A stretch of 64,000 nucleotides of DNA from Sipunculus nudus. Taxonomy: Eukaryota > Annelida > Sipuncula > Golfingiida > Sipunculidae. Within the stretch, counting starts at the first letter, position 1. Each line of letters begins with the position of its first letter. The position numbers and the translations under genes are program-made. The notes under the pieces are model-generated. The model was not told the origin of the DNA and did no database searches. It was given only the letters and a program-made list of their open reading frames with translations. The stretch is from NCBI GenBank assembly GCA_026874595.1, contig CM049306.1:91894642-91958641 (forward strand), given 5' to 3'. Shown here one piece after another: positions 20,591 to 50,400 of this stretch.

Positions 20591-22790
20591 AATGCCTGTC
20601 ATATGACAGGAGTATTATAGTAAACGCGCCGTCCATCTGTCTGTCCCTTTGTTTACGAGTGTCACTGGGGCTTTACCAGGGCTTTTATGGATCTTCACAA
20701 AGCTCACCATAACTACTTACCAATAGATTATCTCATCGGATTTCAATAACAGGCAACATCCATACATATTTAACAGGGTCACTAGGCTTCTTTGTGGTGT
20801 CGCCATGAGAACGTATGAAGAATATACAGGATTTTGATCAAACTCATCAGAAATGTTAGTTAATAAAATATCTCACCTAAGTTTGATTTCCAGCTAAATC
20901 TCATACTTGATGAGGTCAAGCTAGGTCACTGCACTTTGGAGGCACCTTGGTGACTTACCAAAAATCCTATGGAATTTCATGAAAATCATTATACATATTA
21001 ACCAATAGAGTTTCTAACCTGAATTACCTACTCATCAAAATTTATATGATTTTATGAAGTCAGAGGTCACCAGATACATGACGGTGTATTATGCCAATTG
21101 TGGTGCTCTTGTGGCTTTTGTCATGTAACCCAAGATAACCATGGAGTAGACATGCTACCTGCATAGAACTGGTCACAAGTCAGTGATGTAAGACTCCTTG
21201 AAGAAACTAAAAAATAAATGTAGTTTCAAGTCCATTTTGTCATGGCCTTGGACATGAACTTGAACTTGATAGTCCTGGACTCAGACTTGTACTTTAAGTT
21301 AGCTTTTAGAAATGAGGCCGAATCCATAGCAGGTCCAGTGAAATGGGGAAAAAGTCACTGAAGACCTGATGTTAACACTGATTTGTGTGAACTATTGACA
21401 GAATATTTATATATGAATTATGAGACCACTTTGAATTTTTTAGCTCAGATGAAAGTAAACTGAAGTATAGGTATGGCACTGTGTCCGTCATCCGGCTGTC
21501 TGTCCTGGAGTCTGGCCGTCCATTAGCAGGGCACAAATCGTTACCACTGACCCTAGAAACCTGTTACCAAAATATCCAAGGAGGTCAATAAAGAATCTCC
21601 TTGGAAACCAGAGATTAGGTCACTGCAAGCTATATCCACTGAGCTTTGGGGCTTGTATGAACCCCTCCCCCCCCCCCCCCCCGAAAAATTGAAAATTTTA
21701 TACAAAACCTCCAATATTTTGATAATTAATGCATGGATTGTCATGAATCTTGCCTTGAATATTGACCATGACTAGTTTTGTCAGTTCCCAAAAAGTGGTG
21801 GAACCACCTGTATTTTAAGCTCAGCTGACTATAAGTCATCTGAGCTATAGTTGTGGTCCATGGTCCGTCGTCCGTCAGTCTGTCCTAGATGTGGCACGTT
21901 TTGAAACCTTAAGACCTGGGAATCCAAAATTCAGCATAATGTAAGATGTCTCCAAGATCTCCTACCAAGCCGAAAACTGGGTCATTGCGACTTCGTTCCT
22001 TTGAGAAATTAAGGAAAAACCTGAATTTTTTATTAAAAACCTATTTTTTCAGTTTCTCAGCTGTAATTACATCTGGTGTCCCAAAACCTGGTGTGTTTAT
22101 TGATCACTAGTGGATGCCCTATAGTAATCACCCTGTCAGTCTGTCTGTTTGTCTGTCCATCAGTCCATCCACACAAATTTATTTCAAGATGATAACTGCA
22201 GGTTGGATTGAGATATGGATTTCAATTTGAATTGTGTATGGGCCACCACTAAAGCAAGAACCCTTATGATTTTTGGGTCATGAGGTCAAAGGTCTAGGTC
22301 ACGGGACCCACTTATTTTTAAAGATTATGGCTGGGTTTTAAGCCAAGCATTCATCCCAAACCTTCCACTTTGCGCATATAGCTCAGCTGCAAATAGGGAA
22401 AGAACATAAATGAATTTTGGGTCACAAGGTCAAAATCACAGGAGCCATCTGTTCACATATTTGTTTCCAGATGATAACTCCAGTTTGGTTTTACATATTG
22501 ATTTCAAACTTGATTTATGTATGGCCCACCACTTAAGCAAGAACCCTTATGATTTTTGTGTCATAGGGTCAGAGGTCAAGGTCACAAGGCCCATCCATTA
22601 ATTCACAAATTAGTTTATGGATGATAACTCTGGTTTGGATAGATAGATTGACTTCCTAGTTTATTTATTAATGACCCACCCTTTAAGTATGATACATTTT
22701 GATTTCCAGGGTCTTGAGGTCAAAGGTGAAGGTCACAGAAGCCTCATCTGTAAAAAAAGATTGTGGATGAACTGTAGATCAAACTTGTTA
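20591..22790 (+). repeat. Cluster of family A-type elements with tandem inner modules
   Basis: The 20630-21100 part carries CGTCCATCTGTCTGTCC and then 'ggtcactaggc..tttgtggtg' units like those at 9400-9780. At 21443 and 21817 there are AGCTCAG left ends, the second reading AGCTCAGCTGACTATAAGTC. A full 335-bp unit (CAGGGCACAAATCG, CCTAGAAACCTG, GGAGGTCAATAAAGAATCTC) lies at 21525-21810. From 22187 onward another module with 'GATGATAACTSCRGTTTGG', 'GGCCCACCACTTAAGCAAGA' and 'ACCCTTATGATTTTTG' repeats about three times. This order mirrors the inverted copy at 34028-35550. Confidence 0.6.
21668..21682. repeat. Poly(C) run inside a family A unit
   Basis: Fifteen C at the position in the unit where the first array copy (about 104-110) has seven C and the inverted copy has a G-run at 35306-35322. 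Confidence 0.9.
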
Positions 22791-32400: not shown

Positions 32401-35400
32401 TATGGACCTGGTTAATTATATATGCTAATTATTGTTGTGGTTAAGTCTGAGTGCAAGTCAGTGTACTTGAGATTTGAGTCCCAAGTCCACCTCACTCAAG
32501 TGTGAGTTGAAAAAGAAACAGATTTCAAGTTGAATAATAGTTATATATGAAATAAAAGAGCTAGATGGAATTTTATATAATAATTTGTATCTTCATGTTA
32601 GAGGATTTTGTTTTACTTAAATGTTGTTCATGATTTAGCTGGAGGTCCCTCATATGTGGGCATTCAATAGATAACATCTGGGTGACACTAGGACAAGTCA
32701 CACTGGGAGAACATCACACTGGACAACATCATACTGGGACAAGATCAGGGTAACAAGGGGACAACATTATGGGTGACACTGTGCCAACATCAGTGTGACA
32801 CTGGGGCAACATCACACAGGGAAAACATCAGGGTGACACTGGGACAAGTCACACTGGGCAACATCACACTGAGACAACATAGAGGTGACACTTGGACAAC
32901 ATCACACTGGGAACACATCAGGGTGACAATTGGACTAATTAAACTGGGAGAGCATCACACTGGGACAACATCAGGGTGACACTGGGACAAAATTATGGGT
33001 GATACTGGGACAACATCAGGGTGACACTGGGACAACATATGATATGTAAGATTGATGCTCTTACCCCTGTGACAACATGATACATGGCCGAGTTGGTATT
33101 TATCTCTCCAGTAGAGGAGATTGTATCTATATGTTGAAGTGGATATGCAGCACAGGTAACGTTCCCAAAGATCCAAAATACCTCCCTCTCTATCTCCAGG
33201 ATGTGTTCATACATCTGTAAACATAAATCATAGATTTAACTATAATAGTAGTAATATCCAGATTATATATAACTTTGACTGATGACAGGGTAAAATTCAA
33301 ATGTTAATGTCACAATGCACATGTTTGGAGTCAATAAGTTTGCTAGTATCATCTAAAAACGCTAATATTGAGAATAAACCAAAGTGGGGTCAACATGCAT
33401 GGTTCATGGAGTGTAAAAGATGAATGAAAGCTTAAACAATGCAGACTATGTAGGAAGAAGAACAGAAGTTTCTTTTTTCTGTCTGAACATTAAATTAATT
33501 ATTCATTAAAGCCAGCTATTCACCTGCCTGTTTTGCAGTATTTATGTGATTTTCAATATGGCTTACTAGTGCATAAGTATTGATGAACTGTAGGTAATTC
33601 CTGTTAAGAGAAATTCTAATAATGCCTCTGTGACGGATGTATGAGCTTGTTTATCTACAAGCTGTTGGTAAACAATGTACATGCACCAATGTTGACAAAC
33701 AGAAATACCACACAACCTAAGGTGGTTGGTTGAATATATTGTGTGTTGAGATGTCACAAGTTGCAAAACGCCCTTGCAAAAGTCTGGATCATCTGACTAT
33801 TACCTGAAAATGCTCTTGTCGAACGTGTGTTTATTATGTTGGCTGTCAGGTCATCACATGTCAGAAACATGTGTATATAAACCAAACAAAAAGCCTGTGT
33901 GCATATCAGAGTTTTCTGGAATATTTTTTATAAAAGTTTCAAGGGATTATCTTTAATTAATTGATCTAAGATATCAGAATAAGTCCCTTTAGCAAAACAA
34001 AAATTTCTTATTGGTGCTATTGCAACAACAAGGGACCTGTGGGTGATGGCACTAAGCTGATATTGATTATGAGAATATTTTTTTATAAAAACCTAACATA
34101 TTATTATAGGGCAACATTGATAATTTTGTGTATGTCATTATTAGATAAATGTACACAATACTCATATTTGGAGTTACCTTTGTACTTTCATGGGCTACAT
34201 GAAATATGCAGGAGCCTCTCATGGTTACATATTTGTAGAAGTACTGTTATACAAACAGAAAGACTGTAATGTGCATGTAAATTATAAACATGTTTCAAGT
34301 CAATCTTTCTACCCAAACTGGACTTATCATCCATTAACTCATTTGTGAATGGATGGGCTCTGTGACCTTGAGTTTTGAGCTTGTGACCCCAAAATCCATA
34401 AGTTTCTTCCTCTATTGGCAGGTGAGCAATATGTGGAAGATGGAAGGTTTGGGATGAAAAGTTTGGCTTAAAATGCATCCACAATTTTTTTAAAGATAGG
34501 GGTCCTTTGACCTTTGACGCCAAAATCATAGGGGTTCTTACTTTAGTGGTGGGCCATGTATAATTAGTCAAGTTTGAAACCAATAAATTCAATCTAACCT
34601 GGAGTTATCATCTGGAAACAAATATTTGGACAGATGGCCACTGTGACCTTGACATTTTACCTAGAGACCCTAAAATCTACCAGGTCCATCTGCTATTTGC
34701 AGGTCACCCATATGTTTTAGATGGAAGATTTGGGATGAAAGTTTGGCTTAAAATGCATCAACAATCCCTCTAAATGAGTGGGTCCTGTGATCCTGAACTT
34801 TGACTTTGTGACCCAAAAAAAATCATTTGAGTTCTTGCTTTAGAGGGGGCAATATATAATTCAAGTTTGAAATTGATATGTCAATCCAAACTGGAGTGAT
34901 CATCATGCAGGAAACAATTTGACGGACATATAGAAAAACAAACAGACGGACGGACAGGGTAATTACCATAGGGCATCAATTATTCATAAATATTCAAGCT
35001 GGGCCCTAATTACACACAAGGTTTCAGGAAACTAGATGAAACCTTAGTTGCATATCTTTTAGAATCAATATATAATTTGGCAATCCCATAATAAAGGAAA
35101 AAATTTGTAAAGAATAGAAAAAATACAGGTGGTGCCACCATTCTTCCTGAACTGAAGAAACCAGTAATAATCAATAAACACATCAGGATTCGGGACACTA
35201 GATGCAAATACAGTTGAGAAACAGACATAACTGCCATCATTTGACATTCTCAAAAACAAAAACAAAAATTGAAATAATTTAGAAAAAAATGCAAGTGGCA
35301 TTACCGGGGGGGGGGGGGGGGGTATGACAAGCGCAATAGCTCGGAGGATATAGGTCACAGTGACCTAATTTCAGATTTCATAGGAGATTTTTTATTGACC

Positions 35401-38400
35401 TCCCAGGACATTCAGTTACAGGTTTCTAGGTCCAATGATTTCAAAACGTGCCTTGTTAATGGACAGCCAGACAGAGGGACGGCAACTAAGACAGACGACA
35501 GACAAAGGACAATCACTATAGCTCAGATGACTTATAGTCAGCTGAGCTAACAAAGCTGTTTCATTAATGGTTTCTGAATCATATACAATATCTCTCAAAG
35601 TGCCCATAAAGTTTGGAGAAAGCACAACTCACCTCCTTTCGAGCCAGCTTTGCAGCAAGAGTAAGGGGTGTCAAGCCCTGTCTGTTCTGAATGTGTAGCT
35701 TTGCTCCAAGGTCAACCAGGAGGTCAAACATTTCCTGTAAGATATATAATCAGCTTACTTAACTAAATAATTATTAGTATCACATGAAATAATAAAAAGG
35801 GCTACAACCTATGTTTAACTATGACTCTCCTATCAATCAATTTATTCAGAGAAGAAACAGAACAGATGACAAATTGTTAAATCATCATACAATTATGACT
35901 GACCATATGTAAATACCAGCAAACCTGTCTGAAAGATGACCCACCTAAAAAGAACATCTCTGATATCATAAACATTTTATCATGACCCCACGGAAATTAT
36001 AATCATTTAGTCACCAGTATATAACAGGACATACACACACACAATCCTATAAGATCTGTTAAATAGGGTTCATTTTTTAGTATATTGTTCATATTATTCT
36101 TCATTTACTTAACAGAATTGTGCTCATGCTGAGAGAACATGGTATGGAGAGTATACAAGTAGACAGAAATTACAGCTTAAAGTAGTTTGAAAATTATGGT
36201 TAAACCAAGATATATTATGTTATTTTGTATTATATTTTTAGTAATTAAGTGAAGATGGTTAAATCACAGATTGTAGATTAATAGGGTTCTTGCCTCACAC
36301 ATACACAGTTTCCAAATGATAAAGCAAATACTTGTAGTACAAGTGATTATTTAAATACAAAGAGTATTCTACCATAACTGTGCCAGTCCTACTGATAAAT
36401 CACACTATACATACATACTATACATACATAAAAACACCAAACTACATACTCTGTTCCTATAGAGTACCCTAAGTCATACTAGTATTTTTTGCATAAGTCA
36501 AGGTCAGAGTCACTCTGGTAATTATTATGAACATAATATAATATTGGAATAATATCATACATTTGCTTTCCAGAACAAGTAATTTGTTTATTATATCCAG
36601 ATATGTGGTAAAAATTCTCTGTCATGCTTTCACATGCAAAATTTGGGATTTTAATGGCTGGCTACTGCCTCTTAGTAGAAGTTCATGCATTTACCATAGA
36701 AGGTTATGCAAAATATAAAAATCTGCACAATAAAATAATACATGTACACATTTGTAAAAAATATCCTATGAACTAAAAAAAGACACAAAACCATCATACT
36801 AAACTGGTCAAGGTGAACTAATGCAAATATTGTTCACATACCATCAGGAAAGGGTTAATCCACATAACACCAACTAGACCTAAAACAACAGATATGACAT
36901 GTACAGAAACAAATGGATGTAATCAGACTGATTGAAACATTGAGTAGTCCCACCTGACTCCTGAAGTGATCATTGGATGAAACAAGTTAAATGGAAGCAG
37001 CCTAAGCTCAATTACATAACAACATGCACAAACTCAAACATATGACATATAGCAGATAGAGAAGATAAAAGATCATAAATAAAAATAATTAAAAGAGAAA
37101 TTATAATGGAAAATAACATTCAAAAATAAGTTTTGCTAATTATTAGCTGTTGATCTTTTTTTCAATATCTGGGTCATGGGCAACAATATTAAAAGCAGAA
37201 AACCCTAAGATAATGGTGATATTGATGTTTCTATACAGTTATGGATCCTTCAGTTTAACATTTGTTTATGATATGTTTTAAATAATACATAAAAACACTC
37301 AGTTTTGTACAATCAGTTAGCACTTCATTATCATATACCAGTAAACTGATCTGAGCCAAAATGAATGGTTGTAAACCCAAATCAATAATTAATAATGTTA
37401 TTTTCTCTGATTACATTATTTTATTTTGTCAGCTCCTTAAATTGGCCAGTCCTCTTAAATACTGTACTGATCAGTTTTTACCTCTGCAAAAAATGTTGTC
37501 AAAGGTTATGCGTTCACCCCTGTATGTCTGTTTGTTTGTTTGCCTGTTTGTTTGCACAATAATTCAGAAACTTTTGGATACTTGGGATTTCATTAAATCC
37601 TGACAAGACAAGCTCTACGCTATACCCATATCCACACAAATAAAACATGAACACCCAGCCTGCACACATCTATTAAAATTAAACCATGATAAGGCATATG
37701 ATGTAAGTCCAAACCTCTGGATGACTGTACTGTAATGGTAGAATATGAGTGATATAGAAGACAATGTCCCACATGCCATGCAGTTTTCTCTGACCATTTG
37801 CCATGCTCCAAGTCTATGCTTGTTCTGTTCATTACATTCACAACATAACTCATGGAATCTCATTCCTTAGAATGCAGTTTTCTTGTTTGCTTTATATGGT
37901 CTATCAGTACAGGATTCATAGAATTCCACATGATTAAGAGTTCAGAACTAATTCATAATTTCCTGATAACATGTTGACAAACTTGATGGTATCATGAGAT
38001 ATCTTTGCAAAGCTAAGATTCCTTGTGTACATGCAGAATGCAGAATACGGCATGCAGAATGTGTGTTGAGAGATTTCATATATGTTTTGACACAGAACAT
38101 GCATGTTTTCAATGTATTGCTCCTGGATACCTTGTGGAACTGGTAAAAATTTCTACATGTAGTGATTCATTTTGCAGGAAACGATTTCCGCATGTCTGAT
38201 CTGGGTATAAGGGATCTCAACTTTTGTATTTATTCAATACTGATTTTATCCACATTCCGCATTCTGTATTCTGTACTTAGAAATCTTAGCTTTACACTGT
38301 CCCTGCCATAATGAATGGACTTATTCATGTTCATTAACCCTTTTATCTTTTAATTTCTGTATGCTGTATACTATTATATACTTCACTATGCAAGTCATTG

Positions 38401-41400
38401 GGGGACTGTCTCTATAGTTTCTCTTCTTCAAATTATTTCTAAATTTAGGAGGAAATCTAAAGAAAAGTTACTGTAGATAAAATTGTCAGATAACAATTTT
38501 TCCAAGACTTCAGGCACATTTCCTAAAATTTCATTATTTTTAAATACTTTGATTCAAAAATATTTTAGGGTATACAAAAATTGAGCAATTTTATTTTGAA
38601 GATAAACACAGGATTTAAAAGGTAAATGTTTTCCTGTGTATTATCCATCTTTAAAGGGGCCTAATCATCTATAAAGCATGTAGAATTGACACAAAAAATA
38701 GCTCCTCCCCCTTAAATAAATCTGTACCTGCCAAAATATTGCCTTGAGACTGTTTGCGGAGTCCTGTAAATGAGTGTTAAAAACAGTGGACCAGGCATGA
38801 TCACAGGTATCAACATAAACACAGCACGCTGTGCCCTGACTGTCCTGGCCCAAAAAAAGTAATCCATGTTCCCACTGGCTGAAACACCTCATGTTGCAGA
38901 CAATCACACTCGGACCTCCAGTCATGCAGCCTTGTTATGGTTACCATACATATGTGGACTGTGTAAACCAACACGCAGAGCCATTACAAGGTGTTAACAG
39001 CATTTTGGAGGTACTAAGACTGTGTGATGGGATGGTTTTGCTGGGAACTTTTTGTATGTAGCAAAATGGAACTGATAGTGTGAAAAAACAGGCATAATAT
39101 TGCTCCTGATTATGTCCCTTTAAATATCACTTCACAAATGTAAATCTATTAGCATGGCAAATGGTAAGAGATAAAGCAAATATAAATCATTAGTAGTCAG
39201 CTTGTTAATTAAGAGGTACCAGTAGTCATAAGCTGAGTTACAGGAGTTGATTACATATTTAGTATATACATCCATTATTGTAGTTGACATGGCAACAATA
39301 ATATAGAATATACATACAATAATGACCCACGGACTGACAACATGTGATCAGTTACACAGGATTTATCATAGGTTTATTTATACATAATTATAGATTCATA
39401 TATTCCAAATTAATTATAATACAATTTGAAACACAGAACACTATTCATCACATGAAATGATTTTACTCATTTCTTAAAATTTTCATCATACTGATCAAAG
39501 GACAGCTGAAGGAAATAATGAATCAATCTACTTAAATTATTGCCATAATTGTCTGATTAAATAGATCAACAAACCTTTCCAGTTGCAGCACTGTCCCTCA
39601 GCTTTTACACATAGTGCAAGGCAGCAATTAAGCAAATCAATGACAAAAATCATTGGGGGAATATAATTTTTGTACACCATGCATGTACATTCATAGACAA
39701 AATTACCCAGGCAGGCCAGTAAGGTGTTATTGATATTGAAAAACTGCATTCCATCATACCCATCTTTTAATTTATCCTGTCCCATGCAGGGAAAAATATT
39801 TTTTCTGTTATTTATACACAAGACATTGACAGAAAAAGCAAATCCCTAGTTGCTGTTCCACAAATCACTAAATAGCACATAGAAATATTGATTTGTGAAA
39901 TCATTGTGTCAAAATCTAAAAGTTTCATTAAATATCACAATTAAAAAATCATAATCAATCTTATAACAACTGAATCTCTGATCTTGTCAGTACTAGTACA
40001 GATTTTACTGTGTCTTTTGAATCAAAATCAAACAACACCACACCAATTGGAATACACATCAATCCATACTGCATGATTATAACTATATGCTGTTTTTTAC
40101 AGTCAATTAAAGCTTTCCTTCATATCAAACTAACATGAAGAAACTGTCATGAATATGATGCAAAATCATGTCTAAGATGTGATCTGTGTAAAAACTATAG
40201 AATAAAAAGACACATCTTCATATTAATCACCATGCTGAAATAATGACCTGCCACAAACTTACCTTTTTGTCATGAATAACCAACAGGTGCAGCACTGTAT
40301 TGCCATTAACATCTTGCTTGTTGGGGTCGGCTCCCTTGGCGACCAGAAGACGGATACACTCTTCTTGACCCAGGCAAGCAGCAAACCCTAGTGGATACTC
40401 TCCCCAGTAGGTGTAGCTGCAAGTCACAACAGCAGGCACAAATTATAGATGTGTAAATTAAGAGTGTAATGTAATCAAGAAGAATAAAGTATTATAAATG
40501 TCACAGATTATAAGCATTATGATAAATCCATTAAAAATGGAAGGGTAACAAAATGTTAATGTGCTCAGCCGGTATGTACTATAAAAAAAAATGTGCTGAC
40601 CCCTATTGAGTGTTAGTTGTACTATTTTGAACTGCTCATGTGAGATTTCACTGACTGCTTTTTTTATGAATGCATTATTATACTTATTTTAGGGTGTTTT
40701 CATGTGATTGCTGCAACAGTACTGTCCATTAGAAAAAAAAACACATGTGAATCATAAAACATTATGCATATTACACAACTCATTTTACAAAATTTCTACT
40801 CCTTTCATATATATTACATGTACACCAATACAAGTACTACAAAGACAGTGATATTATACTGAAAACCCACTGTAAGATCTGTTAAAACATTTCTTGGAAT
40901 CTTGGAACAAGGCCTTCATTTGGAGTAGCATGAAAATTAAACTGACGTTTTACACATTTTGAATAAACTCTGACCCGTCATAGTTGGTTTTGGGCGACAC
41001 GTCCACCCAATCATGTTCCAAACTGTCTGTACGTGAGGCTTTTTGGTCGTCCGGACAGAAGAAGTTCCCACAGCATCGCTGGTGATAGTCTGCTCCAAGG
41101 TCAAGGTAAAATTTCACCATAGCTGGGTCCTCATTAACGATGGCCATGTGGAGAACATTCTCACCTTAAACAAGAAGTAAATGGCATTTTATATCAATGA
41201 TAAAATACATATGGGCTAGATTTTCTTAAGTGTCCACTTTTCGGTAGGAAAATATTGAAGAAAATAAGTTCCTAATATCAGGATATTAACCATAGGCCTT
41301 GACAGTACATGTCTTGCCAAATATGTATACCAAAGTACAGCATCCGGACTAGACCCCTTAATACTTTGCCACGTGAGCAAAATAAGACCTCTATCTAGAG

Positions 41401-44400
41401 TGTGATCTCCTTTACCTTTTTGTTCTGTTTCAGATGCATGCTATACAAATAAAACCATTCAAAGATACTGGAATACCTGTGACGCTATACGATGGATAAT
41501 GCATCACAGAATAAAACATATGCAAATTTTGTTTGTATATCTGTAACCCTGTTTCGGGAGAGAGCATGGAAATAGAGGGCTTTTACCAGAATAAAACGTA
41601 TTTTAATGGCATTTATATAACATATAGTTTCCTTTTGTATGGACAACTGTCAATTGATACCCTAGTTTATCCTTGCCTATCTTCAGTAAAAGAACATCAC
41701 CATTTACCTAAATCAATTAACAACATACAGGCCAAAAGGCAGGTAAATATTTCATGTGCAGCATTAAACATTGGGTAGAAATGTAAAGGAGAACACGAGG
41801 AGAGGAGATACATTTAAGTATTTGAAATATTAATAAATGCTACAAACAACAACTGGAAAATGTTTTATTATAAAAAGACAATCTGCAGGCATCTTAATTA
41901 ATGTGCAGTTCACGAAATATTTGCAAATAAGTGTTAATCTGTAAGTCAACTCGTCCTTTAGAAAAATATCCATGATAATTCTGAGCAAAGGTTATTCATC
42001 CAGAGCTTTATATTGGCCTGAATGACTACAAACAGATTAAGAAAAACAATATATGATGTAACTTTCTATGTGACTGCTAATCATTATATGATCAATGAAA
42101 ATGAGTGTGTCAGTGAGTCAAGTAATCAGATATATGATATGTAAAGGAGAACACCAAAATAATAGCGAGTATAATATTACATGTAATCAGATGATAAAGT
42201 ATTAACGCGAAATAAATCCATTACAGAAATGATTACCAGTGATAGAAATGCCTGATGCATTTTGCTTGGTTGACAAAATCAACTGCCAGAAGGTGTTAAG
42301 AACTATCAATCGTCCTTCATGATTTCAAGATCTGAAATATACTTATATACCTATGAATGATGAAATTGTTCATCTAAAATGAGCACTTGTTACAATTTTT
42401 GAAACAATAAAATGACATCAACAGTTCCAAAAGACTAGATCTTTATACAGGCATGTCGAACTGAGTCTGAATGCCAAGAAAATGATACACATATTGTATG
42501 TAAAGGAGATCACATGCAAAGAAAGTGGGTTACACAGAAATCTGAACCATCTTAGACAATACCTTCTGTCATTATTTATGTGTATCGGAACATGTGCCAA
42601 ACATCATTCTACCCATCTTATATAGACAATTATAACATGAATCCTTTCTTAAGTGCAATATGCAGTATATTCAACTGGAATTCTTAGAATTGGGTCCTGC
42701 TGTACTTATGCAAAATTATGTAAGAGTGTCAATCTTGTCAAACTCTACTTGTTCTTAGAACATGTGAATTACAATTAGGAAACTTATATATAAAAGTGAA
42801 CATTTAAATCGGGTACAGCCACTCGCAGTCTGGGTATTACCCCAGTTTTAATCCAGTAGGGAGATCAGCACTGAACACTCTCTTAGAATAAGGAACAGGT
42901 GCATTAATAGTGCACACAATGTCATCTTTTGGAACTGGAATTTCATCTTTCCGATTCGGCCACTTGAACCTATGCAGTTTAACACTTGTGCACTGCATAA
43001 AGTTAATTGTCAGGCTGTCTGGGTCTGGTACAGATGTTATCTCCCCAATGTAATGCGATTCATCATATGTGGCAACAACAAAAGTTCCAATAGGAATAGG
43101 ATTTGGATCTTCAGACTTTGCAGCAGGACAATCAAGAGATGAAGCTTCACTGCCTGCAGACTTACCAGGAAGAGCCGGGGATGTTTTTGTGAGCTGTTGG
43201 TCACCGATGTTTTGCCCGTCTGCTGTGGGCTGGTCATATATTCTGAAGTTACATTCTGGAAACTTATGCACTACCCAACCCGGACATGAAGGCTGTTGTG
43301 CGAGTCCAGAAGGCTTATAGCATCCAGAACAAAAGCAGGACACATGGCGTAATGCAACTGAACTTGTTCCTTGTATTGGTATACAGGCATGGAACTGCAT
43401 TGTGCCACAAACAGTTTCTCTTGACAGTTCATCTAACTCCTTGCGAGACTTCAAAATCTCCTTTGCTGTGTACAACCTGTATTTCGGAGCCATTTTCTCA
43501 CCATTTCCCCACTTGACAAAGTCCTCGGCACTTTGTATTCGTATGCCCCTCTTGACTGCTATAGAAGCCATTCTCTTGCTGCTTCCACCTACCCCATCAC
43601 ATGCTCCCTTCCCGTGCCCGGCTTCCATGTATGTCCATGTAGCTTGTTTACTCCATAGTTTCTCATGGTGACTCATGATCTGAAACATTGTTTTGTTTCG
43701 ATATTGGCTGGTTGGGGAATCACTGGTGTAATGCACTGTATTGACAAATGGCAAGTCTGCATTTAAGTCATCAATAAGTTTTTTCATGATTGTAAAGATT
43801 GCAGCGACCTTATGATCTGTGCTATCAGAACAGAATATGTAAGACTTGACCTTCAGTGATCCGTTAGTGTCATCCTTGTAGTAAATGACAACTGGGTGAA
43901 GACTAATAGTTGGTTTGTTATAATAGCTACTTTGCACCTCTTCCAGGTAGTCGCAAACAAAGTTTTCTGCAAAGTCCATCACGGCAACGGCATGCCCAAG
44001 ATACAGGTTTTCTTTTAGGCTTCTTACTTCTGAGTACTGAGTCTTAGCTCTACTTGTGTGCTCTCTAAAAGCTGACATCTCTTTATAAAAGTCGCTGACG
44101 AAATCATTTCTTGTTTTTGAGACACGGACCAATGCAGTTCTTTTGTACTTCTGGTTCTCTTCTGACTGATAAGTCACCTGCTGCCATTCCTCAAAAGTAA
44201 TGTTTGGTGGCAGCTTTTTCACATCAATGTCTTTCAGCTGCTTTTCACAAACAAACTGCTCAGCACTTGAGTTAATTGAAGGTATATGACGTTTCAGTGC
44301 ACGGAGTTTAAGCTCAAAATTTTGATGTTGCTGACACAAGCAAATTTCTCTCTTTTTAAATGATACATGTCTGAGGTGCGTTGTGAGTCGAACAACTGTC

Positions 44401-47400
44401 TGAAAAAATGAGAGACTAACATATGGATTGCCTTCATCCAAGTACTTGTCCCGCAGGTTGTAAACAAAATCATTCAGAACTCTCAGCTGATGGCTTCCTG
44501 TCCCATCTTTCCTTCCTGGTAGCACACTTGAAATATCATCTCTTTCCAAGAATTTCACGACGGATTTCCTTTTCTGCTGATTTGCTTCTTCCTGTCTCTT
44601 CTTCTTCACTTTCTGTAACCTCTTCGTTTTACTACAGCGTAATTTCTTTACATTCATCTTAAGGATTTGGCTTATTCTGCATACTGATCTTGTCTTCTTC
44701 GCATAATTGCCAGAAACTGCATTGGATATAGACACATCTGTATCAGTTTGTTCCGTCACCTGTAGCTCTTTTGCAATGGTATGCAAAGCTACTAGTTCCT
44801 TGTGTAGAGAGGGTACATTTTCTGGTTGAATTCCAGCATCCTGAAGAATACTTGCTGCTCTCTTTTTTGGTGTGCAGAATGATTGTGGGGTGTCTGGCTG
44901 AAGACCATGAGTGATGATTTTACCTTTCAACCTCTGATTCTGTTTTTGTGTTGTTTTTAATTTCTTTTTCAAGTGTGTCATTTCTGATTCTAGTTTTTTA
45001 TTTGCTCTTCTTAGTTTTGATGTAGCATGACTGATTCGTCTTCTGGATTTAGATTTATGTGACACTGGACCACTGCAAACGGTATTCACAGTAAATGGCA
45101 GCTTTACCACCAGATGCGATGATGATCTGTTCCAGGGTCCATCATGGACACTCGTTGATCTTGTGGCCCGCTTTGGTGTAGTAGGACATCCTATTTCTGA
45201 GTTGTTGTGATTTTTTTTATCTCGAGCCCTTTTTCGAGATTTCTGCATAGCCAATTTTACCTTAACCCTCCTTTTCTCAGCATTTCCTTTCTCAAGCGCT
45301 TCTGTTGGAATGTATGCAACTCTCTTTCTCTTTGCTTCTTTTTCAAGAAAAACTCTCCCTTCTCTTTCTTTCTTCCTGTGATAGTATCTCAGCTGTCTGC
45401 TTTGTTTGTCCATCTTACAGACTATCCTAAAACATATAATGACAATGGATACCATTACTATTATATCATACTATAGTTTGTATAATAATATTAGTAAAAT
45501 TATGATGTACAAATTAATTAATCAAGAATCATCAATATATCTAAACACACACACTGTGCCCCCCCCCCCCCCTCCGTAAGGCGTGAGTAGTGAGTACCTT
45601 TGGTCAGGTTTTATTCATCAGAAATAAACTATCAGTATTGTTGTTAATAAACATGTCCAGTTATAACAGTCAGACCTGGAATATTAGAAATTAATAAAAT
45701 GTGTACACTTGTGTCTGTGTATGTGTGTGTGTGTGTGGGGGGGGGGGGGGTGTTAACTTCCTAATATAATCTTAAACAAGGAAGCACATTTTTTTTGCTG
45801 TCATATGTGGTTATAGAAAATATTCTTTCAAGTTTATTATTCATAGTATATAAAAAGTGTAAAAAGTGTGTATGAGGGGGGGGGGGCAATTGTAATTATG
45901 AGCCAAAAAAAAAACTATATATACCAAAAATCTCTTGTTTGATCTCTGTATTGTTTATATACCAGTATCATGAGTCAAATTGATATAATAAGGTCAACGA
46001 GTGTGTGTTTGGGGGGGGGGGGGGTTGTTCCTGATGAAATATAATGTAATTGAAAGGGGTGAGGGGGTGAACAGGGGGCATGCATTAAGCATGTGTCATG
46101 GCTGAGGCATGCACCCAGGCATAATCTCCTATCATTTTTTTATGCTTACACACTTAGGACAGTAAGTAAGGCAAGAGATGACAATAAATTTGGTATTCTA
46201 CCCAAACAATGGAAATATTTAACAAGATCACACCATAATTTAGTTTAGAAGGTAAGGAGGATTACTTACAAATCTTATCTGAAACATGCTTACACGTCTC
46301 AGTAAAAAAAAAACAGCCTAAACTGTGGGAGCTAAAGCAGTTATCTCCTTTACACATTATGTGAACTCCTTTACACCTTTTTCAATCACATTTCTGGAAC
46401 GACCTTAAGCGTATTTTCTCTTATTTTCGCTCGAATAAATGTATCAATGATGTAAACAAGATACTTAATCAAGTAAAAGCGCCAATTCCTTGCTCTGCGC
46501 TACTAATTTCTGGCTTTGAAACATTGAAATTAATTATCTCACTGATAATATTACCCGTTTATCGTTGAAAACATACCTATAGGGACGCTGGACTCACGTT
46601 CTTGCCGCCATCTTCGTAACACAGGGTCGGGCTGACGTCACAAATTCAACTCACTGGTCTATATGCTGGCGCCACCTGTCTACCTTTTCAGACATGAAAG
46701 GCTTGGTAAAGGAGAACACGTAAAGGAGTTCACTCTCTTCACCTAGTTCCACTTGATACGAACCGCGGTGCGTCGCATTTACCAATTCATTTAATACATT
46801 GGGAGCGTGAGTAGGCCGGCAATATAGTAGCATGTGTTAAATGTCCGCAACTGCTAAGGTACCGTGTCAACAGGGCGTAAAGGAGGTCACTTCCTTAACG
46901 CATCTCTCTCTCTGTCAGGCATTGATCTGTCACATGCGTAAAAGTAGCAGAAGTACTTAAAATTTATTATCATGAACGCAGACCGTATGACGCGCGAATT
47001 ATTTAAATATGTTACTGAATACATTAAGTGATATTTTGTCATATTTTATGGGTATTATTATGTTTTGTAAAGGAGAACACATGGCTCTGGCGACATTTAG
47101 TTTTGGAAGTTTTCTCCTGATTAAAACATACGCGGCCTGTATCTTGACATTACTTTTTAAGTCAAAACTCGCGTGTCTCCTAACCGAGGATTCTAAATTT
47201 TTCACCTTTTCCTTTTATTGTTTTGGTAATGTTTTGAAAATTAAGGAGTGCTTTGGCGACATGGAATTTCTTTAAAAAATGGCCGACCTCTTAACTATTA
47301 CAGTTAACCACACGGGAAGTAAAAGATATTACCTGGTCATGTCATATATGTATAGCAAGCTTAGAAAACGATCTATCAATTGGTACAGGAACTTAAGTGA

Positions 47401-50400
47401 AAACAAATACTAGTTTGGAAAAACATGCTGGCGACAAAAATACACCTAAAAGTGGACAGTTAAGAAAATCTGGCCCATATATGATAAATCAAATAAATAT
47501 GTGAAAAATTCCATATCAAGTATACTGAAATATGGTGAACATATGGCTACTTGAATGTATAACTTGGTAACTTGGTTTCTGGACCTTTACCATGCAAACT
47601 TCTTTAAGACTAAGTAATTTTAGGCTAATCATCCTGTATTTTAACTAGAACTCCTTAAAGACAGTAAGAACTAATAAAGACAAGATCCGTTTATTTTGGA
47701 TGAAATCAACAATAGTAGTCCATTGTTGAGGACTTTATATCTGAATACTTTTGCAAGTATGCAAAAATCAGAAGGTCATAAAGGAAAATTATTTTGGCAA
47801 TAAAACTGACCGACATAGCATAGAAACACTGTAATCATGTAATATTAACTGCATCTGGTTCCTATTTATTCAGAATCTAACACATAAACAAGTTGACCCA
47901 AAACTGGCAAATAAAAATACCTTTGTTATCATTTTCAAATGTCTGCTTTTTCTCACAATTCAAAATAAGCAGAGACATTCATTCACTATCTAAGTATGAA
48001 AATACTCTCAACAATAAGCTTTAAAGATGCCCATTCACCTACCATTTGAAAAAGAATTGATATGATTTCTGGCTTCCCCTGTGTATATATTAATGATCTA
48101 AGGGTAATTCTGCTTAGGAAAAGTTCTTATAAGGCCTCTGTGAAGGATGTATGAACTTGTTTATCAACAACATGTTTGTAAACACAGCAATGTTAACAAA
48201 TTGGAAAAATGTAACCTAAGGTGGTAGGTTGCATAAATGTGGAGGTAGAAAAGTATGTTGTTGTAAAACACCATTTGCAAAGCTCTAGCTGCCAGATGCC
48301 CTTATTGAATTTGGTTTATTTTGGCGCCCCCCCCCACATATTATAAACATGTTGATATAAACAAAACAAGCAGCCTGTATGCAGTGATATCCACATTTTC
48401 TGGCCTATTTTTTATAAAAGCTCCAAGGGATTACCTTCAGTGTATAAAGGTCAAATGATGATTTGGCCCTTTTAAGGAGTTCAGCATAATATATACATAT
48501 GAAGCAATATACAAAGCTGACTTACCATAATATTCCTCACTAATGTAAATATCATTCAGCAGTTTTGGGTAGTGTTTCAGCAGCCGTTTGGCCAGGTCGG
48601 CATGGATAGAAGAAGCATTTAGGAGACAACAATGTAGAGCATTCTCCCCGACTGCACCACGCTTGTCCAAACGCCAGCATGTCTCCATGTACTGAGGCCC
48701 TGAAGCAGAATTCATATGCTGTCAGGTTATAATGTACTCAAAAGATTATTAATGTCAGATTTTTAATCAATAGGAACATTTTGTTTTTTTGGTATCAAAA
48801 TGACATTATTTGGCAAAAAAAAGGTAGGGTTCTTAAGCACAAGCGTGTCGATCTTAAACCCTGGCATCAAAAACTTATATTTTGATTTTCAATAGAAACT
48901 TATCAAATTTGAGCTTCAGCTGCTTGGACATTTCTTTCATGAAGATAAAATATCACAATTTTGATAAAATTTCCTTTGTAATGTAGTGCTTTTACATGTT
49001 TAGTGGAACAAATTTGTTGTTATCATTTTTTTTCCCTGATCATATGACATTTTTATCAAAACATACAGATAAAAGTTTTTAAAAATCACCCTAAAACACC
49101 GATTTCTGAAAAAAGTGCCTGAGAGTCCAACTTTTTTTTGGCCTTACATATAAACACATATTTAATACTGAATCTAAGACTATGGGTAAGACTAAGCATA
49201 GTGGTGAATGTGCAACACTTTAGGTCACAAGTTCAAAACTGTCAATGCCTCTACAGCAAAGCAGTTTTTCTTTTTCTTGTAAATTGATAGACAGAACCAA
49301 CTTCAAAAGGCTAAGAGCTGGGAGATCATGTGTTCAAATCTCAGCAAAAGAGCAGTGGCTGCCACCCAGATCAAGTGCTCTGCAGGCTTACATGAGGACT
49401 AAACCTAACAGTCACATTTCACTCATAAAAGAGTGCACCTTTTGGGGGTTCCTCAGTGTTATGGGAAAGATTACACACATGGGGCCCAACAGGTGTGGTA
49501 CACAAAGAGTCTGGTTGACATAAGGATTATTTATTTCTGCCATGTCACAGAGTCACAAAAACAAATTTGATTGCACATGTACCTTGTATTTAGTTAAGCC
49601 AGCATTTAAAATGGAGGTGGTTACTTAAACCACCACAAATATTTTGAAAAAAAGATAGATTCAGTCTTAAATCTACATGATGTACATGTTAATATTTCTG
49701 ACCTGATTTATTCCTACCCTGTGCATATATAAACCTTAAATCAAAAAGGCTTAAAAATTACTTTTCACTCGTATTCATTAGAAGCGGATCCAGGGGGGTT
49801 GGGGTCCAGGGTGTCCGGATAACCCCACCCCCCTTTTTCACCCAAAGCAACCTTTTTTAAAGGGTTTAAGATGCAACTTTGCGACCTGGACCTGATGACC
49901 TTTTTTTTAAGGAATTTCATTAGTCCTCCTGGGTTAGACCCCCCTTTTCCTAAATCCTGGATCTGCCCCTATTCATTATGTTATTATCTTCATTTAACAG
50001 ATACTGGGCATCCCATTTAAAGGCCATGGTCTCTTTAGAATAATCTGAATACAGATTCAATCTTTTTTCACCATATTTGCTGGTTACAGCTGATATAATG
50101 AGCCCTCTATCCCAGTTCTTTAAATGTACCATCTTTTTAATTAGTCTCTGTTATTATTAAGAGTAATGCTTAAAGCTTAATTAGTGGCAGTAAGCTTTTT
50201 AATTAAATGGAACAGTTATGCAATAAAGTAAATCTGAGGTACCAGTAGATGTTTATAAGTCAAAGCTTATATATAACTCAAAAAAAATATTCCAACAAGA
50301 TTATCTGAAAAATTCAGCAAATAATTTTATAGATTATAATAATCTTATTCAAAATAAAAAGATCAAAGAGAAATCAGATTTTTGTAGCTATATACAATAA

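Follow-up and report, generated by a model that had tools for sequence, protein, structure and literature searches.

What is the 6.26 kb of DNA that makes up the greater part of an intron in a sensory channel gene of Sipunculus nudus, has it moved, and might it still do so? The window analysed here is a stretch of 64,000 nt from contig CM049306.1 of assembly GCA_026874595.1 (forward-strand positions 91,894,642 to 91,958,641); positions below are window coordinates, and numbers beginning with C or L denote other contigs and loci of the same genome. At 41213-47476 the window carries a DNA transposon of 6264 bp, its open reading frame and matched ends intact, inside an intron of a TRPV gene. We conclude that it is very probably a recently moved cut-and-paste element of the RNase-H (DDD/E) type that works in the manner proposed below, and that it probably represents a new family within a known class of elements. 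The group to which its transposase belongs lies below the cut-offs of Pfam, NCBIfam and PHROGs; for this group the element is a complete reference in which the borders, the target-site duplication, an empty site and the probable binding sites are fixed.

The element is bounded by terminal inverted repeats (TIRs) of 33 nt with three mismatches, the left one (41213-41245, plus strand) opening with GGGC and the right one (47444-47476, minus strand) closing with GCCC, and both flanks read ATAT (41209-41212 and 47477-47480). A first-pass annotation, made from the letters of the window, had described these repeats, a possible ATAT duplication, ten subterminal 14-bp motifs, an unbroken 858-residue frame and insertion into a TRPV intron, and all five observations hold. 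Its concern that other copies sharing both ends might be lacking, or might have different borders, is answered by a second full-length copy, G000:C14:9894830-9901111, whose borders are identical to those in the window and which differs by 35 substitutions in 6263 aligned bases (99.4% identity) and eight insertions or deletions. Copy counts from the whole-element search are lower bounds, so the genome holds at least these two full-length copies. Aligning copies, the route that the annotation had proposed for fixing borders and duplication, gave a consistent answer: all seven copies with both flanks read fit a 4-bp duplication, which is exact in five (ATAT in the window, ATAA on C14, ATAT on C8, TTAA on C2 and AAAC on C15), while the C16 copy and the copy at C10:28045407 lie in AT repeats whose flanks are simply compatible with one. 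An eighth left end, at C11:22508295, stands without a right end. Because the two full-length copies, though at unrelated sites, have identical borders and 4-bp duplications of their own, and shorter copies share the same ends, the sequence is a transposon rather than a host gene.

An empty site can be reconstructed for the C8 copy, which is inserted in a dispersed repeat. When its flanks are joined with a single ATAT, all 40 of the repeat places scored match the joined sequence through the junction (over 291-304 bases), and the eight unoccupied repeat copies viewed that span the junction all do so without a gap. The genome search with this repeat listed 5603 candidates; the window itself carries the repeat at 22172-22786 and 34301-34904. 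The target appears rich in A and T: in the four bases adjoining each of 20 right ends, A or T occupies 72 of 80 positions, compared with 63% A/T in all loci collected.

How recently the element moved can be judged from the likeness among copies. Genome probes of the two ends gave 19 and 27 matches, and match coordinates place both ends 3.6-4.5 kb apart at nine or more shorter places: C16:56559017, C10:28045407, C2:49511844, C15:11002174, C15:30565111, C13:42875241, C8:49066894, C2:53740015 and C14:28155956. The C16 copy, the sole shorter one read whole, has no transposase, its longest open frame not exceeding 167 residues, and the nine shorter copies are not among the 54 matches of the transposase search. 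Over their right-hand 1250 bp, L043, L044, L045, L046 and L049 (the first four being among the nine shorter copies) match the C16 copy at 97.8-98.1% identity. Other copies fall to 57% identity over the same stretch, so movement was spread over time. Since the full-length pair is 99.4% identical and five shorter copies have right ends this close to C16, we conclude that movement has also been recent, and the window copy, taking up most of its intron, is read as a recent insertion. A closer but internally deleted relative at C10:15237686-15240119 consists of pieces 74-86% identical to the element and a transposase remnant at 69%. In other families of the same transposase group, the pairs L011/L012, L025/L027 and L032/L035 are 99.7-99.8% identical over compared stretches of 5163, 4395 and 3810 bases that stop short of the ends; several members of the group have therefore moved recently.

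The subterminal motif GTAAAGGAGNNCAC occurs ten times within the element, nine times exactly and once with one mismatch, and four times in the rest of the window with one or two mismatches each. At up to two mismatches the whole window thus has 14 sites, a number that none of 100 shuffles reached (mean 3.79, maximum 9). Four sites lie towards the left end: motif 1 (GTAAAGGAGATCAC, 41402-41415, minus strand), motifs 2 and 3 (GTAAAGGAGAACAC, 41783-41796 and 42141-42154, plus) and motif 4 (GTAAAGGAGATCAC, 42500-42513, plus). Six lie towards the right end: motif 5, the one with a mismatch (GTAAAGGAGATAAC, 46340-46353, minus), motif 6 (GTAAAGGAGTTCAC, 46361-46374, minus), motif 7 (GTAAAGGAGAACAC, 46706-46719, plus), motif 8, which abuts it (GTAAAGGAGTTCAC, 46720-46733, plus), motif 9 (GTAAAGGAGGTCAC, 46877-46890, plus) and motif 10 (GTAAAGGAGAACAC, 47067-47080, plus). 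The diverged, transposase-less C16 copy offers a test of their importance. When its outer parts (1420 bp on the left, 1241 bp on the right, gaps counted as differences) are aligned with those of the window, 133 of 140 motif bases are identical (95%), compared with 1476 of 2454 outside motifs and TIRs (60%; Fisher p 2e-20), and the TIRs agree at 64 of 66 bases. Each of the ten motifs is better kept than its own 60-base flanks, whose identity is 52-71%. This difference, 95% against 60% in such a copy, marks the motifs as probable binding sites of the transposase. In the right-hand 1250 bp, 10 of 18 copies examined carry the full set of six motifs, no motif having more than one mismatch; the ten are close relatives and not independent witnesses. 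Spacings of 358, 359, 359 and 361 bp recur among the sites (41783/42141/42500, 46361/46720 and 46706/47067), and similar ones, 360 and 361, are found in the C16 copy; as to the origin of this spacing of about 359 bp, our guesses are an old duplication or a pairing of sites at some multiple of the nucleosome length.

The transposase frame runs on the minus strand from an ATG at 45413 to a stop at 42837 (42837-45413; 858 amino acids and stop). No further open reading frame of at least 150 amino acids is present in the element, the window's one other such frame lying outside it; there is therefore no second enzyme, for example a nuclease, in one long frame. The first-pass annotation had suggested a DDE triad of D480, D565 and E597, and an alignment of twenty open frames from the genome keeps two of the three. 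D is found at position 480 in 19 of 20 frames and likewise at 565 in 19, and H600 is H in all 20, while position 597 is E in 17, G in two and A in one; position 606 is D in 18 of the 19 rows with a letter there. A wider scan of loci found a clade with G597 and D606 (L036/L060 and L062/L063, each pair being one place covered by overlapping loci); in L029, A at 597 goes with D at 606. The opposite case, E at 597 with S at 606, is found in L017, and the decayed frame L061 is without both. On balance D606 appears the better third residue, and D480, D565 and D606 are our candidate catalytic set. Upstream of the transposase start, 45562-46030 holds several runs of C or G, each of at least 11; three of these runs are about 135 bp apart and have some flanking sequence in common. 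Length changes between the two full-length copies fall partly in this region, and eight of their 35 differences are crowded into some 90 bases (45631-45717) immediately before the start of the frame.

From these features we propose the following model. The 858-residue transposase would bind the repeated GTAAAGGAGNNCAC sites near both ends, would then pair the 33-bp ends, and would cut at GGGC/GCCC by means of D480, D565 and D606. The element would then insert into A/T-rich DNA with a 4-bp stagger between the joining positions, leaving the 4-bp duplication. The same or a close transposase may also have mobilised the shorter transposase-less copies, which have the same ends and motif array.

Several observations weigh against this model or against the mobility of the window copy. 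An AlphaFold model of residues 395-720, built from the window sequence alone, reached a mean predicted local distance difference test (pLDDT) score of 37.6, and an RNase-H fold is thus unsupported by structure; predicted helices and strands follow one another much as in that fold, a likeness to which we give no weight as evidence. No transposase family in Pfam, NCBIfam or PHROGs reached its curated cut-off, the matches there being weak and scattered. Motif 2 is the least well kept in the C16 copy, at 11 of 14 bases. Among the matches found there are only two full-length copies, and the C14 frame is interrupted by stops (codons 61 and 64) and shifted by an insertion of 1 bp, whereas that of the window is open. 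Between the two, substitutions number 8 in 2577 bases of the frame and 27 in 3686 outside it (p 0.037). Purifying selection on the frame leaves no sign in this pair, because six of the eight frame changes are non-synonymous, two of them nonsense, and two are synonymous.

The rival that survives best, one that we consider a serious possibility though short of an even chance, is that the window copy is no longer mobile, a recent dead insertion whose frame is still undecayed. The decay of the sister copy and the scarcity of full-length copies among the matches both fit this reading. On the other side, the ends, motifs and frame of the window copy are all complete, and the five shorter copies with right ends 97.8-98.1% alike indicate that the system moved within that span. 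The first-pass annotation had called the element intact and apparently autonomous and had suggested recent or ongoing activity. For the window copy the open frame, complete ends and complete motifs stand, and they make its autonomy plausible; the sister copy, with its stops and frameshift, is not intact. Recent movement likewise stands, and the window copy may still be active.

A less probable alternative, and on our estimate an unlikely one, is that the element belongs to a eukaryotic transposase group with neither a named superfamily nor a curated profile, marked by DDD residues, the pattern HGKGxxDGxGGxxK, a distant link to DUF7869, a 4-bp A/T-rich target and a conserved array of subterminal sites about 359 bp apart. 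The best Pfam match of the window protein is HAS-barrel at E 0.14, and Protein Data Bank sequence searches with the protein and with the profile gave no meaningful match. BssC_TutF, matched in 4 of 20 members with a best E of 0.0002 and on repeat in 3 of 5 members at 19.3-21.8 bits (cut-off 25), is taken as chance: the match stays below the cut-off and spans just 27-34 residues, at some distance on the N-terminal side of the catalytic region. A C-terminal Tudor- or chromo-like module was likewise set aside as unproven (PHF20L1 at E 2.1; BRWD_AD at 0.011 and MORC2 chromo at 0.045, in one member each). Peptide-pattern scans of viral and genome contigs, by which only carriers of the pattern are detectable, returned matching stretches, none confirmed as a relative.

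The link to DUF7869 (PF25273), which Pfam describes as of unknown function and for which a literature search found no paper, begins with the region from the second D to GH, which resembles these proteins. A genome search for PF25273 gave 17 matches, and L080 passes the Pfam cut-off (29.7 bits, cut-off 26). Profile comparison of the catalytic region (A1 core) with L080 gave a probability of 63% and E 7e-5 over 93 columns, pairing D565, E597, H600 and D606 with identical residues; the probability was 80% for L081 and 81% for the C-terminal part of L082. The L080 score of 42.6 compares with at most 24.9 in 60 column shuffles, 14.4 for the reversed set and 20.4 for the best of 31 other open frames, a control that left out frames matching the A1 profile and hence the C-terminal part of L082; tested alone, that part scored 42.8 and the N-terminal part of L082 scored 11.7. 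The profile of the L080 type is nearly one sequence (effective number of sequences, Neff, 1), and the link therefore rests on one related set. It is also indirect, because comparison with L072, the genome's strongest DUF7869 match, was not significant (probability 0.6-0.7%, E 0.08-0.1). L080, L081 and L082 form a second transposase-like family, with a 690-residue frame scoring above the cut-off for DUF7869 and the motifs SDGCCYQNRN and GHTQMEVD; two of its copies have proteins that are 99% identical. The element offers a candidate function for DUF7869-like proteins, and if the unnamed transposase group were real, DUF7869 would become a transposase domain.

Less probable again is membership of another named superfamily with 3-5 bp duplications, for example AcademX, or Kolobok or piggyBac. 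In favour are the 4-bp duplications that Kolobok and piggyBac elements make, the TTAA of one copy here, and the RR...YY ends of Kolobok, a pattern that GG...CC would satisfy. The other duplications, ATAT, ATAA and AAAC, argue that TTAA is not required, contrary to the TTAA-specific duplication of Kolobok and that of piggyBac as given in passages of PMC9587614. The C/DxxH signature that Kolobok has between its second D and last acidic residue is absent from residues 566-606 of the window protein, between D565 and D606. For AcademX the 3-4 bp duplication fits and an encoded nuclease is expected, but no Pfam nuclease family was found in the protein and no other frame of at least 150 amino acids in the element (no search was aimed at a spliced second gene), leaving no second enzyme in one long frame.

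The host gene is itself identifiable: minus-strand translations of 48437-48721, 40950-41165, 40227-40442 and 35579-35749, joined, match Nanchung (PDB 9nvo, E 3.5e-81), and by this match it is a Nanchung-like TRPV gene. Between the exons at 48437-48721 (before) and 40950-41165 (after), both on the minus strand with limits set by the open frame, the element accounts for the larger part of the intron, and its reading direction is that of the gene. That the frame is a domesticated host gene in this intron, with the ends as relics, is very improbable, for although the window frame is open while the C14 frame is broken, the whole 6.26 kb including its ends lies at a second unrelated place with a 4-bp duplication of its own, and its non-coding parts are as alike as expected of a recent copy (the 27 in 3686 against 8 in 2577 above, p 0.037).

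Comparison with known systems bears on the placement too. Among the named families for which the first-pass annotation had proposed profile searches, Pfam gave neither a MULE nor a hAT match. The duplication of hAT elements is 8 bp, and groups of that kind are excluded by the 4 bp seen here. CACTA and P/Galileo-type elements have several copies of short motifs near both ends, with duplications of 3 bp and 8 bp; the present element resembles them in its subterminal arrays and differs in duplication length and in having no protein match to them. MULE (MuDR) is disfavoured by the 4-bp duplication, set against 7-12 bp in passages of PMC10741241, and by the lack of a Pfam MULE match in all 20 members; duplication length alone does not exclude it, because a passage of PMC10045372 gives 4-10 bp. 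Sola fits most closely. It is described, in passages of PMC10741241, as having a DDD transposase, 4-bp duplications, a length of 2-9 kb and inverted ends of 11-1124 bp; excerpts of PMC3627910 give Sola2 of Dictyostelium fasciculatum AT-rich 4-bp duplications (AWWT) and an 888-residue transposase, and Sola2 is known in bivalves according to a passage of PMC10294476. The 4-bp duplication of all seven copies and the C8 empty site agree with this, as do the element's size, its 33-bp ends and its 858 residues, near the 888 reported there for Sola2. The DDD type is suggested by D606 (18 of 19, compared with 17 of 20 for E597) and by the G597 relatives that keep D606, as judged from sequence alignment. 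Of the duplications, ATAT fits the AWWT reported in those excerpts, and ATAA, TTAA and AAAC do not. Compared with Sola through these descriptions, the element is most likely Sola-like, a placement to which we give about an even chance.

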